A program made the position numbers and the translations under genes. The notes below the pieces were generated by a model. The model searched no databases. It was not told the DNA's origin and saw nothing but the letters and a program-made list of their open reading frames with translations. A stretch of DNA of 64,000 nt from Ilyomonas limi (GTDB taxonomy: Bacteria > Bacteroidota > Bacteroidia > Chitinophagales > Chitinophagaceae). The stretch covers positions 1-64,000 of the forward strand of contig NZ_SZQL01000004.1 in assembly GCF_005233845.1 (NCBI RefSeq), in the 5' to 3' direction. Below, in pieces: positions 1 to 36,200 of this stretch (within the stretch, counting starts at the first letter, position 1; each line of letters opens with the position of its first letter).

Positions 1-145
1 GCTGTAGTAACATCTATGAGCTGAAGAATATTCAATCATGTAAATCCACAGCGTACTAAATCTATCTCTTTATGTAGTACCTTTATTCACATATCACCCC
101 TCGAAAACCGCTTTACATAGGATACTTTTGTTAGCGGCAGTGCAA

Positions 146-970
146 TTAATCTTTCTTGTCCCACTTTCCATTCAAAAACTCGAGTGAGACCTTTAAAAAC
201 TCAGATTGAAAATCGGCGTTCAGGTGTGGTAAATGTCCTCCGTTAGGAATAATCCAAAGCCGGCTGTTGGGTATGTATTGATGCATTTCTAACGCTTGCT
301 GTAACGGAACAGCCTCGTCATTATCTCCTTGTACAACCAACCATTTAGCCTTTATCGTACTCAAAATATCCGGAGTAAAGGAAGGGTCTCCATAAAGGGT
401 TAAGTTCTGCCAGAACGCCTTTGCCAAATACACCTGTTTTTCTGGGCCGTGTGGCGCGGCCCATTGCATAAATTGATTCAGTCCATTTTTTGTTACCCAC
501 TCTCTTGTGTACTTACTAAAATAAATTTGTGCCCCGATTGCAATAACAGATTTGAATCTCTCCGGCTGCATTATACTAAGATGTAGTAGCGTCATGCCTC
601 CGCTGCTTGCGCCAATTGCATTCACTTTGTTTAGTTTCAACGAGTCCAACAGGGCAAGAATAATTTTCGCATAGTCTCCATGCTTAAAATTGAAATCGTC
701 TTCCCTATAAATATCAGAGCGTCCATGCCCCATCATGTCAACGGCAATCGTTCTAAACTGTTTTGAGTAGGTCTCTACATAAGGCTTCCAATGGTCAGCA
801 GTTCCAAAAAAACTATGGAGTAATAAAAGAGGTTCTCCGTTACCGGTATCTTCATAATAAATTTTGGTCCCATTATAGTTAAAGAACTTTCCGTTAGGAT
901 TAATTTTTACTTGCCCGTATGTGGCGAAGCAGGAGATAAAAACCAAAATTAAAATTGTGAATTGTTTCAT
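146..970 (-). CDS. secreted alpha/beta-fold hydrolase
   Basis: A 274-residue alpha/beta hydrolase of unknown substrate. The first ~19 residues form a signal peptide (MKQFTILILVFISCFATYG), so it is probably exported. The core fold is visible: the oxyanion-loop segment LLLHSFFGTADHW near residue 50, the strand AVDMMGHGRSD near 77, the nucleophile elbow GASSGG near 120 (Ser nucleophile), an acid in VVQGDNDEAVP near 215, and the catalytic His in PNGGHLPHL near 245. This layout is typical of proline-iminopeptidase and epoxide-hydrolase-like enzymes, but the sequence does not decide the substrate. It lies between two sites containing CCGCTAA, one just after its stop and one before its start, and looks like a single-gene cassette rather than part of an operon. 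Confidence 0.88.
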   Translation of the reverse strand: MKQFTILILVFISCFATYGQVKINPNGKFFNYNGTKIYYEDTGNGEPLLLLHSFFGTADHWKPYVETYSKQFRTIAVDMMGHGRSDIYREDDFNFKHGDYAKIILALLDSLKLNKVNAIGASSGGMTLLHLSIMQPERFKSVIAIGAQIYFSKYTREWVTKNGLNQFMQWAAPHGPEKQVYLAKAFWQNLTLYGDPSFTPDILSTIKAKWLVVQGDNDEAVPLQQALEMHQYIPNSRLWIIPNGGHLPHLNADFQSEFLKVSLEFLNGKWDKKD

Positions 971-1000
971 TTTTTGATTTTTTGAAGTTGTGACTATATT

Positions 1001-1139
1001 GCCGCTAATGGATTAGGGCTTGCCGATGTACCGGCATTAGCATTCCGTCAGCTTAAATTTATTAATAAAGTTGGATAGTGTTCTATTGTTTAGCCTTTGT
1101 TCGTGAGCCGGTATATTAGCAAACCCCTGTTAGCGGTAG
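1001..1139. repeat. attC-like imperfect inverted repeat between two small genes
   Basis: The left arm (about 1001-1036) and right arm (about 1104-1139) are imperfect reverse complements over ~33 nt. Both ends carry CCGCTAA/TTAGCGG pairs, both inner ends carry TACCGGC/GCCGGTA pairs, and bulged, unpaired bases lie between. The spacer is ~65 nt. The whole element (~139 bp) sits exactly between two co-oriented minus-strand genes. The architecture (paired outer box, bulges, paired inner box, loop) is that of integron attC sites, although the outer boxes are not the classical RYYYAAC/GTTRRRY. Confidence 0.5.
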
Positions 1140-1209
1140 ACTTGTTTGTCCAGCCGATATAATACCTGTCTGAAATATTTATTCAAAGCACCAGTCCCAC
1201 TAAATGTCT

Positions 1210-1668
1210 CTAACACTTTTTGTGCTGCGTCAATCTCTGCTTGTCTGTATAATTGTTGGTCACATTTGAAATGCTGCCTAAATAAACCATTCTGTAAATT
1301 AAATTGTCAGGCTGAAGTTGTACAGCTTTGAAAAGCATCTGTTTTCCTTCTTTCTCCAAGTCGTCGTAGTCGCCATACTCATAAGGAAATATTGAGACCG
1401 TGTACCCTGCAATGAAATTGAAATCGGCATTGCCTGCAAAAGTTTTCTTGCCTTCGTCAAACATTATTTGCAGCAAGTGTCGCAAGTTTACTTTGTCATG
1501 GAAGCTACTCGGCGCATCTTCGATGACTGACCACAAAAAGAAATAAAAGTGCTTCCAGACCTTGTAGTCATTTTTATTCTGATTATAAAGTTTACTGTAA
1601 GTATCAAAAGCCTCGTCAAACCGTTCGTTGTCCTCTAAGGTGAATATGTCTTGAAGTGATTGTGTCAT
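1210..1668 (-). CDS. hypothetical helical (TPR-like) protein, probable frameshift near its C terminus
   Basis: A 152-residue open frame that I do not recognise by name. It is acidic and helical, with TPR-like helix pairs at the N terminus (NERFDEAFDTYSKLYNQN) and a long middle region. The last ~12 residues are basic and atypical. Shifting frame near 1238 gives 36 more residues (AEIDAAQKVLETFSGTGALN, then KYFRQVLYRLDKQVYR) that read as natural amphipathic helix and end at a TAA at 1130-1132, immediately before a CCGCTAA box. The native gene is therefore probably 1130-1668 with a one-base lesion or sequencing error. It sits in the cassette-like left edge of the window, with repeats on both sides. 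Confidence 0.6.
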   Translation of the reverse strand: MTQSLQDIFTLEDNERFDEAFDTYSKLYNQNKNDYKVWKHFYFFLWSVIEDAPSSFHDKVNLRHLLQIMFDEGKKTFAGNADFNFIAGYTVSIFPYEYGDYDDLEKEGKQMLFKAVQLQPDNLIYRMVYLGSISNVTNNYTDKQRLTQHKKC

Positions 1669-1719
1669 TTTGAAGACTGTGTCAGCTTACAGCCAACTCC
1701 CAAATATACGCAACCCTAA

Positions 1720-1766
1720 CTAACGGATTGCGCAAGTCCATCCGACAGCCGGCGCATTTGCGTAAC
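1720..1766. repeat. short imperfect palindrome at the right border of the cassette-like region
   Basis: The left arm CTAACGGATTGCGCAAG (from 1720) and the right arm CCGGCGCATTTGCGTAAC (ending 1766) form an imperfect GC-rich hairpin. It separates the small-gene region from the housekeeping-type gene at 1897. It may be the outermost recombination-like site of the array, but its boxes differ from those at 1001-1139. Confidence 0.3.
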
Positions 1767-1878
1767 TATTGCTAATCGTATTGTTCTTACCGGAACAATT
1801 AAATGGCAATTCAACCCCCATTTACCAGCCTGTTCCTTTTTTACCATCTCTCTCTACCATTCAAACCCAAAAAGCTAC

Positions 1879-33214: not shown

Positions 33215-36200
33215 CTATTCAACCAACAATTCGCTTATAATTTCCATTTGCTCCAATAATTTTTGCACCTCCGGGCGGCAACTGCCACAACCCAAGCCGG
33301 CACCGGAAGCCTGACATAATGCTTTTAAATCGGTGCAACCTTCCTTTATTTTATTTACAATATTCCCTTCGCCTACATTGCCACAGGAGCAAACTAATTT
33401 GCCCAACACCGACGCTGCTTTTTTACCCGAACGCAATAACTCTAACCGCTTTTCTGATAGCTCTGTTTTATTTTGAATGAGCTCTTTAAATTCTAAAAAT
33501 TCGGTCTTATCACCAATCAAAATAGCGCCTACCATTACATCTTTACGGATGATACATTTTTTGTAATATCGCCTGGCTTTATCTATAAAAATTACTTCTT
33601 CATAAGTAGCATCATTTGCCGGAGCTTCTGCTATGCCCAGAGAGCATAATTCGGTGCCGTGCATCTTCAATATATTCATTATCAAAGAACCTTCGTAATA
33701 TTGACTAATATCACCGCTGATATGTCTGGCTACGATCTCTGCCTGTTGCTCTGCCGCTGCGGTGATGCCATAAATAGCGCCCTTAAATTCGGCCGCTTCA
33801 CCTATGGCATAAATGGATGAATCGTTCGTCATTAAGTACTCATCTACTACTACGCCGCGCTTGTATTCAAGCCCACATGTTTTTGCTAATTCAATATTTG
33901 GCACGGTGCCAATTGCCATAATAATTGCCTGGCAGTCTATCTCGCGGCCACTTTTCAACCTTATACCTTTTACACAATCAGAGCCCAGCAACCGCTCAAT
34001 TTCATCATTATAAAAAATGTCAATTCCTTTTTCCGTTAATTCTTCCTGCAGCAGTTGGCTGCCAATAGCATCTAATTGTCGGTCCATCAGTTTAGAGCTT
34101 CGCTGAATAATACATACTTCTACACCTATCTCGCGCAGCGAAGCAGCCATTTCGATACCCAATAAACCTGCACCAATAATGACTACTTTTTCATTGGAAG
34201 GCTGTACATGCGCTTTAAAGTTATCAGCATCTACACGGCTGCGCATCGTAAATACACCGCGCATGTTGGGCAAGTCTTTCAATACGGCTGGATGGCTGCC
34301 GGTTGCTATTATCAATATATCATAATGATGCAATTTACCTTTGCTATCTGTCAGTAGCTTGTTTACTCTGTCAATGTGTTTAATACTGATGCCGCGATGC
34401 AGGGTAATGCCAAAGCTATTTTCTTCTTCATCTTTCATTTTTACCAATTGCAGCCAATGCTGTGCACCACTGATATAATCAGGCAACATCACGCGGTTGT
34501 AAAAGGGAAAATATTCTTTGCTGAAGATTTCAATTTCATCTATTGTATTCAATGTGCGGTAGCTTTTTACAAAACCATAAGCACCAGCACCGGCACCAAT
34601 GACCACGATCTTTTGTTTCTTTTTGTTGTAAAGTTTTACAGCTACTGCAGCATATTTAAAATCGGGTTGTTTGCTTTTGGAATCCAATAAGTTATTAGTC
34701 AAATTATTTGCCCGGTTTAAATCGGAGTTCAATATTTTACCCCAATGCATTGGCAGGAAAACAACACCGCTTTTTATATCAGGAGTAAGCTTTGCTTTTA
34801 CCCGTACCTGACCACGATTGTTGCTGATTTCTACCAAGTCATTCTCTGCAATACCTCGCTCCGCCGCATCATCCGGATGTATCTCTAAGAATGATTGAGC
34901 GATATGCTTTTTGAGCTTACTTACCTTACCCGTTTTGGTCATCGTATGCCATTGGTCGCGAATGCGCCCGGTGGTTAAAATAAGTGGTAGATCAGCCGTT
35001 GTTGGCTCCGATTCATTCTCATCATCTACTGCATGAATAATGGCCTTTTTAGAAGGTGTATAAAACTGCTTATTGGTAAATAAGCGTGGTGTTTCCTTGC
35101 CATTTTCTTTATATGGATATTGAATACTGCGGGCATCTTTTAATATTTCATAACTCAGTCCACTGATGTCAATATTGGTACCTTTTGTGGCGCGACAATG
35201 CTCGTCGTAAATTTCAGCAAAGCTGTTATAATCAAATCCGTGGTAACCCATTGCTTTTGCAAAGCGGCAAATAATTTCAGCGTCGGGCAATGCTTCCCCT
35301 GGTGCATCTACCATTTTGTACAAATAAGTAATGCGGCGCTCGGCATTGGTCATGGTGCCTTCTTTCTCGGCCCATGCAGCAGCCGGTAATACCACATCGG
35401 CATATTGTAAGGTTTCAGGCTTATTGCTTACTTCCTGTACCACTACAAATTTAGCTCTTTTCAAACCCGCTTCCACTTTATGAACATCAGGCAGGCTTAC
35501 GAGCGGGTTGGAACCCATTATCCAAATAGCCTTTAATCTACCATCGTTCAGCGCATCAAACATTTCAGTAGCCGTTAAGCCAGGGTTTGAATTAATAGTA
35601 GTACCGCCCCAAAATTGTTGCATAAAAGTACGGTCTGCTTCACTGGCTAAATTGCGATGTGCCGATAACATGGTGGCCATGCCACCCACTTCTCTGCCGC
35701 CCATTGCATTGGGTTGACCCGTTAATGAAAATGGGCCACTGCCCGGCTTACCAATATGACCTGTAATGAGATTTAAGTTGATGAGACTTAAGTTCTTATT
35801 TACCCCGATTACACTTTGATTTAAGCCCATCGTCCACATTGTAATAAAGCCTTTTGACCTCGCGATATAACCAGCCGCTTCGCGTAATTTTTCTTCGGGA
35901 ACATCGCATATTGCTGCCGCTTCTGCTACAGTGCGCTGCATTACCTTTTGCTTATATCTTTCAAAGCCTTCTGTGTGATTTTTTATAAAATGAATATCTA
36001 TTGCTCCTTCTTCCAACAACAATCTGCCAATGGCATGATGCAATACTACATCGGTACCCGGCTTTAGTTGCAAATGCACATTGGCATACGCGCAGGTTTG
36101 TGTGTTGCGCGGGTCACTTACAATAATTTTTAAATCGGGGTTGGAAGCTCTGGCCGCTTCTACTCTTCGCCAGATGATAGGGTGGCACCAGGCAGGGTTA

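Follow-up and report, generated by a model that had tools for sequence, protein, structure and literature searches.

What is the long imperfect palindrome that stands between two small genes at the beginning of a contig of Ilyomonas limi (Bacteroidota, Chitinophagaceae), and to what kind of system does it belong? The stretch of DNA analysed here, referred to as the window, comprises the first 64 kb of contig NZ_SZQL01000004.1 (C34 below; 311,195 nucleotides, nt) of assembly GCF_005233845.1, a genome of 5.88 Mb in 70 contigs. An initial annotation, made from the letters alone, had proposed an integrase-free cassette array with attC-like bulged palindromes, perhaps of a Bacteroidota-specific type. 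Such a type is now strongly supported: the palindrome very probably belongs to an integron-like gene-cassette system of Bacteroidota that operates without the integrase IntI. A cassette of this system would usually consist of one small gene and an imperfect hairpin site of ~140 or ~200 nt. The site of the window has the following parts, all on the minus strand:

1000-1138, minus: attC-like recombination site (145.9 bits with covariance model R1, of whose training set it is a member; covariation; DNA matches elsewhere)
1129-1138, minus: R'' box
1107-1127, minus: 5' arm
1036-1106, minus: loop (71 nt)
1016-1035, minus: 3' arm
1010-1015, minus: spacer
1000-1009, minus: R' box

The bulged palindrome noticed at first sight is a real, covarying structure. 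A DNA search with the element gave matches at E ≤ 0.01 in 47 of 244 genomes of the family, its own included, with at most three candidates scored per genome. Sixteen of 28 matched stretches were aligned (alignment A1; partial stretches omitted), and 13 of these, with trimmed ends, form alignment A2, L011, L016 and L026 having been excluded on inspection because their ends are shifted or short. In the 13 aligned sites, 92.3% of the inner-stem cells are paired and compensatory changes on both sides occur at 13 of the 18 pairs, the arms varying between copies while the pairing is kept. Over the whole structure, 57 cells are changed on both sides, against 22.4 ± 3.6 after shuffling (0 of 500 shuffles as high), and the covariation is lost when the partner is shifted by one to three columns. 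An A.C mismatch within the covarying stem (columns 26/116) is kept in 13 of 13 sites. The outer boxes read TACCGCTAAC and ATTAGCGGCA on the minus strand; in the outer stem the AAC/GTT pairs are found in 13, 13 and 12 of the 13 sites, and the letters past them are often unpaired (helix pairing, 68.5%). RNAalifold predicts the inner stem alone on A1 (17 pairs), and the outer boxes of R1 were assigned by hand. It is important to note that R1 was built on Chitinophagaceae-type sites and misses other site types.

In the window, R1 finds one match at E ≤ 0.01. The covariance-model search of the genome that the initial annotation had recommended returned 61 matches at E ≤ 1 from 150 scored candidates out of 2640 (E-values rough); most of them belong to arrays of small genes that share one strand. 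Fifty of them have E < 1e-3, and 32 of these 50 lie within seven small contigs that sum to 46 kb, or 0.8% of the genome. In seven array loci the longest open reading frame (ORF) is on the strand of the sites in 31 of the 33 intervals with an ORF of at least 60 amino acids (aa), while 5 of all 38 intervals have none of that size. The ORF-bearing intervals span 641-3246 nt, and some of the longer ones conceal a site missed by R1 (L069 near 9804; L071 near 4112). The two longest ORFs that run against their arrays, in L073 (C36) and L078 (C16), look by eye like a DNA adenine methylase and a transposase, one each.

The cassettes show matching ends. In the genome of I. limi, 25 of 33 pairs show complementarity between the box that follows a gene and the one at the start of the same gene (the R' of the site before it), a match being defined as 6 or 7 of 7 variable letters. 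The controls gave 3 of 40 within one site and 5% for random pairs; 43 of 49 matches were used, the weak, partial and opposite-strand ones being omitted. Cassette ends would be expected to match if the mobile unit were cut at G↓TT (the arrow marks the crossover) and had to form a paired site as a circle; this would also explain the frequent disagreement of R'' and R' inside one site.

Some arrays adjoin a recombinase gene. Contig C20 carries a gene for a 382-aa tyrosine recombinase (34776-35924), followed by a same-strand array; on C3 a second open recombinase gene faces the contig edge, with an attI-like site and a cassette start after it, and on C33 a broken recombinase gene lies ahead of another array. 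The search for an integron-type tyrosine recombinase, also recommended at the outset, led in this way to the enzyme beside the C20 array and to none above the IntI cut-off. The description "integrase-free" holds locally and fails for the genome, which has two open genes of this recombinase family (C20, C3) and the broken one (C33). A TraG/YWFCY conjugation gene is located upstream of the C20 recombinase (L069:1-2652); the cassette platform of C20 may sit on a conjugative element.

In a scan of named genomes, at least 537 relatives of the recombinase were found and the best 80 loci were kept. Among these best 80, R1 at E ≤ 0.01 detected 86 sites in 38 loci, and a search of both strands on both sides of each recombinase revealed a fixed polarity in 86 of 86 cases: 69 sites are downstream on the strand of the recombinase, 17 are upstream on the opposite strand, and the other two combinations are empty. 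The recombinase is oriented as the array at 26 loci and divergently at 12. A model-free test of end matching, applied to 79 of the 80 loci (L171 has no readable frame and was omitted; its match coordinates served for polarity), gave 39 + 27 matches in the same two orientations, from 33 of the 79 loci, against 0 + 0 in the two control orientations. By either test, an array is present at 47 of 80 loci. With 66 of the 86 sites (loci with a single usable site omitted), cassette ends match in 33 of 45 pairs and in 24 of 27 with a gap below 1300 nt, the controls being 6 of 66 within a site and 4.4% at random. The bottom strand is the more stable one in 28 of 39 and in 51 of 66 sites, which is compatible with a folded bottom strand as substrate.

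The first cassettes of several arrays begin at attI-like sequences. In eight recombinase-array pairs, two of which (L081, L082) are identical in DNA to loci L101 and L113 among the 80, the gap between the recombinase and the first site was scanned for the R'' of the first cassette; five of the eight arrays gave a match of 13 of 14 letters beside the recombinase, and L080 one of 11. The sequence preceding G↓TT often resembles GCGTATATTTACG, and the attI-like motif of the window is similar to sequences found shortly after recombinase genes elsewhere. The genome of I. limi contains three exact copies of the motif TTGCGTATATTTNNGAGTT: in the window, at C3:105127 and at C56:241796, the last two with a same-strand site 1.1 or 1.9 kb further on. 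By eye, no relationship is apparent among the 220-nt stretches that precede the three motifs. The genome has nine XerD-profile matches; C34 and C56 carry none of them, and on C3 the distance is ~100 kb or more. Therefore, the window is one of three dispersed attI-like places with isolated cassettes. TATATTTG resembles the -7 promoter box of Bacteroidota, and the attI-like site may also promote expression of the first cassette.

Cassettes are also found in new surroundings. The sequence GTTATGCGTAATTTTTGG... directly follows both the attI-like site of C3 and the final site of C33, and one site end, ...GCGCGAACG↓T, precedes a different cassette on each of the contigs C36, C40 and C42. In both junction cases the identity starts or stops at most one letter from the crossover. 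The 123-nt identities show that a given cassette occurs in more than one setting; they do not show recombination taking place.

The recombinase is not IntI. PF00589 and the SAM-like domain PF13495 are found in each of the 51 aligned members. When profile A5 is compared with IntI4 (2a3v), residues 6-186 and 245-319 are matched and 58 IntI4 residues face 18 profile positions; the IntI-specific additional domain lies in this unmatched 58-residue part. According to one study, this additional domain is what defines IntI (PMC9668308). To judge by its sequence, the recombinase lacks the IntI insert and, with it, the defining domain. With the IntI model the C20 enzyme reaches 171 bits, below the cut-off of 265. 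This cut-off is passed in one of the 244 family genomes (L039, G171:C24), by a gene broken by a stop codon, and no match above it was found in the genome of I. limi. Among the NCBI models, the enzyme fits NF040815, "site-specific tyrosine recombinase/integron integrase", best, with a score of 212 where the cut-off is 220. A clade of the recombinase family with IntI was rejected (approximately unbiased test, p-AU 0.0095); the family itself, with TnpF included, was not rejected as one clade (0.19), although the best tree does not show it as such, and this quick tree (48 rows, a subset of the recombinases, two IntI only, long branches) is provisional.

At its N-terminus the enzyme has an additional domain of ~70 aa, in which a motif like GxxWSxTxKxWY occurs. 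Modelled alone, it reaches a pLDDT (predicted local distance difference test) of 95. Its best VIA-align matches are archaeal XPB N-terminal domains (Z up to 6.5; root-mean-square deviation, rmsd, 1.8 over 52 residues); the SMARCAL1 HARP domain (4o66) gives Z 4.6 over 48 residues and the translation factors aIF1/eIF1 Z 5-6.2. Since aIF1/eIF1 also score high, a common fold arrangement is possible. The best Foldseek match is YciH (E 0.058), the sequence search of the PDB gave nothing below E 0.4, Pfam DUF5710 matches 3 of the 51 members, and the literature search on the HARP domain gave no match. In the Chryseobacterium plasmid NZ_CP041688.1 (L195), a relative of the recombinase is annotated as "integron integrase" and is followed by five sites that R1 detects on its strand; genes for an IS110 transposase and a group II intron reverse transcriptase are interspersed with the cassettes, and the record table has no cassette annotation.

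These observations suggest the following mechanism. The outer boxes would be private to each cassette: its start (GTT, seven letters, one fixed mismatch and three more) would be complementary to the letters after its gene, which end in AAC, and an excised circle would regain a paired outer stem because the two ends of the cassette are complementary. The tyrosine recombinase with the extra N-terminal domain would join G↓TT of one site to G↓TT of another site or, alternatively, of an attI-like sequence ~100-290 nt beyond its own gene, at which new cassettes would enter, probably as a folded single strand. Catalysis would be due to this recombinase, its substrate would be the folded (bottom) strand, and the N-terminal domain may aid recognition. 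In the window, an attI-like site with no neighbouring recombinase would hold two cassettes, followed by a third site hit by a repeated element. A wider proposal is only slightly favoured over its negation: that this is a second integron system of Bacteroidota, common in the phylum, whose recombinase evolved apart from IntI and recognises folded sites by an XPB/HARP-like N-terminal domain instead of the IntI domain that reads extrahelical bases, and which was the platform source of tet(X) and of the recombinase remnant on Acinetobacter plasmids. If true, integron-style gene trading arose or was rebuilt a second time without the IntI-specific domain, many small genes of these bacteria annotated without a function would have an explained origin, and there would be a concrete test of how a recombinase lacking that domain reads folded DNA.

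Several points weigh against the cassette reading. The case is built on sequence (arrays, polarity, end matching, repeated cassettes that diverge at G↓T and attI-like starts), from which recombination is deduced. The 123-nt identical stretches are contig overlaps of the kind that assemblers leave at repeats. In the genome of I. limi, 8 of the 33 pairs score under 6, partly because of missed intervening sites. The rule of the model-free test was fixed after the pattern had been seen, and the test did not pick up the window's own cassettes. At 33 of the 80 recombinase loci no site was found by either test, the contig ending less than 700 nt downstream in 12 of them, and related loci (e.g., L158/L160, L142/L147) are not independent. 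In the attI scan, L081 gave no match and L085 scored 9 at the motif, its best raw score (10) being elsewhere. The energy difference between the strands is small (mean 1.6 kcal/mol), and weak second R1 matches occur on the opposite strand at the same place, as expected of a palindrome. Finally, the R1 genome searches were all within Bacteroidota.

How do other explanations compare? Palindromes that recur after genes and share a conserved loop sequence might be miniature inverted-repeat transposable elements (MITEs), repetitive extragenic palindromic (REP)-like elements, intrinsic terminators or structured RNAs between genes. This was rejected and is scarcely credible: the arms vary yet covary, unlike terminal repeats, Rfam gave no match at gathering score at the sites of the window or of five array loci, and the identity of boxes from site to site across genes is needed by no terminator or MITE. 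An ordinary attC cluster without an integrase (cluster of attC sites lacking integron-integrases, CALIN), mobilised by a classical IntI encoded at another place in the genome or in the population, would account for the AAC/GTT boxes, the hairpin layout and the cassette logic, all of which are those of attC, and G171 does have the stop-broken IntI-type gene above the cut-off. However, the genome of I. limi has no such match and its C20 enzyme stays at 171 of the 265 bits; the arrays adjoin a different recombinase, with fixed polarity, in many Bacteroidota, and the inner stem and loop of their sites are longer than those of the usual attC. With the IntI tests negative, a classical CALIN was rejected as very unlikely. 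A CALIN is defined by at least two attC sites within 4 kb and no integrase (PMC9668308); the window has one complete and one broken site, other contigs of the genome hold arrays, and recombinases of another type are present in it.

Less remote, though still improbable, is that the cassettes are real and the neighbouring recombinase is a passenger, the joining being done by XerC/XerD or another enzyme, as for pdif modules. Catalysis by the neighbouring enzyme would be a reading of sequence, 33 of 80 recombinase loci lack a detected array, and the genome of I. limi has a XerD-type gene above its cut-off. On the other hand, a passenger does not readily fit a polarity of 86 in 86, attI-like sequences beside the recombinase, three recombinase genes of I. 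limi, one of them broken, located at arrays or cassettes, and a partner that stays the same in different families. The pdif or Xer modules, which use 28-bp dif-like sites, are likewise gene modules joined by Xer-type enzymes, but the sites here are long hairpins with cassette-private boxes, and pdif modules were rejected on this difference in site type.

The integron-like cassette system thus named can be compared with integrons proper. Both have tandem one-gene cassettes in one orientation, AAC...GTT hairpin sites, the G↓TT crossover logic, matching cassette ends, an attI-like start by the recombinase and a bottom strand that folds slightly better. In contrast, the recombinase here is not IntI, lacks the IntI insert, has the extra N-terminal domain of ~70 aa and is mostly in the orientation of the array, and the sites, ~140 or ~200 nt long, have a long covarying inner stem. 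The system has the attC-like sites with end matching and the attI-like starts with polarity; it does not have the IntI score, domain or clade. It is not an IntI integron because its recombinase scores below the IntI cut-off and does not show the IntI domain. In the integrons of Treponema and Blastopirellula an IntI-type integrase is in the orientation of the array; this is the layout of 26 of the 38 loci here, whose recombinase is not IntI. Integrons have already been reported in Bacteroidota: complete ones are deemed rare, the 2022 IntegronFinder survey naming one in Bacteroidetes proper, that of Salinibacter ruber M1, in its available text (PMC9024848), and the phylum is also listed for integrons in the accessible parts of three other papers (PMC8618304; PMC9668308; PMC2426708). 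These were found by searches for IntI (and attC), and the recombinase here falls below the IntI cut-off. For an integron-like subgroup of simple tyrosine recombinases, the available part of the source does not mention cassettes or sites of its members (PMC8138268). No report of the present cassette system was found in the open-licence text of PubMed Central (PMC), preprints and subscription journals being outside the scope of that search.

Within the window, the cassette region runs on the minus strand from 1713 to 1, in the order attI-like motif, 152-aa ORF, hairpin site, α/β hydrolase, partial site and repeat:

1695-1713, minus: attI-like motif TTGCGTATATTTGGGA↓GTT (0 mismatches to GCGTATATTTNNGNGTT; 0.04 expected per window at ≤ 1 mismatch)
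1009-1696, minus: cassette 1, 688 nt as expected from crossover to crossover (limits: the attI-like crossover and the R' box)
1210-1668, minus: cassette-1 ORF, 152 aa (weak PADLOC match to a tetratricopeptide repeat, TPR)
146-970, minus: cassette-2 gene, α/β hydrolase (Pfam PF00561, E 9.2e-29)
122-139, minus: first part only of a third site (R'' at 130-139 and the beginning of the inner arm), interrupted at ~121
1-121, no strand assigned: end of a repeated, presumably mobile element inside the third site (four genomic places, all contig ends)

The two genes have the same orientation, as initially described, and no recombinase adjoins the complete and the broken site. At the attI-like motif the crossover would fall between 1697 (G) and 1696 (T). 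The ends of cassette 1 agree in 10 of 14 letters, including 5 of the 7 variable ones, and the hydrolase R'' (130-139) matches the R' at the start of that gene (1000-1009) in 9 of 10 letters. The matched CCGCTAA/TTAGCGG borders described earlier are confirmed at the central site; the right border is instead the attI-like motif, and the left one (1-139) is a site, broken off at ~121 by a repeat that also ends three other contigs. A box had also been placed right after both stops. This is true of the hydrolase, whose stop is 6 nt from its box; the 152-aa ORF stops 71 nt before its box, and another frame continues to a stop within it. This second frame resembles by eye the relative in G030 and runs to the box, and therefore the copy in the window may be frame-shifted near its end. 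The 152-aa ORF had no match in the Pfam search. Its gene was matched in 3 of the 244 family genomes, its own included: the relative in G030 (locus L237) has one site on each side, and the third copy (G106, near a contig start) has no R1 site within the stretch examined. The spacer is thus neither unique to this place nor conserved with the two genes in all relatives; the site recurs elsewhere.

A stretch of 132 nt at the broken third site also forms the ends of contigs C20, C41 and C44, each just within the inner arm of a site, so one repeated, presumably mobile element takes the same spot in four sites. By eye it is tentatively IS110-like. A 46-aa putative transposase fragment apparently comes from the other end of the element; it has only two copies, both at contig ends, and searches of Pfam, NCBIfam and plasmids gave no match to it. 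Elements of the IS1111 family target attC according to the available text of one report (PMC11187229). The likeness is that of one repeated element at one position of several cassette sites; the difference is that the element of the window is not assigned to a family.

The system is widespread in the phylum. In a survey with stricter filters and eight candidates scored per genome, R1 matches 95 of 395 genomes of a Bacteroidota sample at E ≤ 0.001. The recombinase loci come from Chitinophagaceae, Flavobacteriaceae, Sphingobacteriaceae, Spirosomataceae, Weeksellaceae and others; L171 is named as a Phycisphaerales metagenome-assembled genome, possibly misbinned. A plasmid protein search with the recombinase returned 384 records, 50 of them from Acinetobacter. 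In the one of these that was examined, the Acinetobacter baylyi plasmid NZ_CP104735.1 (L194:1552-3702), a shortened relative (61% of the query covered at 49% identity), which is annotated as a tyrosine recombinase, stands directly before tet(X3) on the same strand. Between the two is the boundary GTTATGTGCCATTTTT, attI-like by eye, and tet(X3) is directly followed by the beginning of a site (20.9 bits, E 0.003), which is truncated where the stretch ends; the boxes before and after tet(X3) agree only partly. In a Bacteroidota genome (G299, L205:381-2664), a complete site (60.6 bits, E 5e-13) directly follows a gene that shares 86% identity with Tet(X3), and another site lies beyond. This was the only one of ten Tet(X)-like loci examined to have a site; four others above 55% identity had none. 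The Tet(X)-like gene of I. limi itself (L206, C43:1350-2480; 71% identity) has no R1 site at E ≤ 0.05; its 4-kb contig also carries an AraC-like regulator and an rve-type transposase. The xerD-tet(X3) arrangement is known, and the words "integron" and "cassette" do not occur in the main text of one report (PMC7494873). That this cassette system explains the mobility of tet(X) may be regarded as a lead. If true, it would be a possible source mechanism of tet(X), and the neighbouring tyrosine recombinase, the xerD of the literature, would be a remnant of a cassette recombinase.

Repeats with the plan of the sites, which R1 misses, are also seen in the Flavobacteriaceae loci L149, L152, L156 and L169, upstream of the recombinase and on the opposite strand (e.g., AACAATGTATAACCG...CGGTTATACGAGACCGTTG). 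In L152, three such repeats in succession show, by eye, the same end matching.

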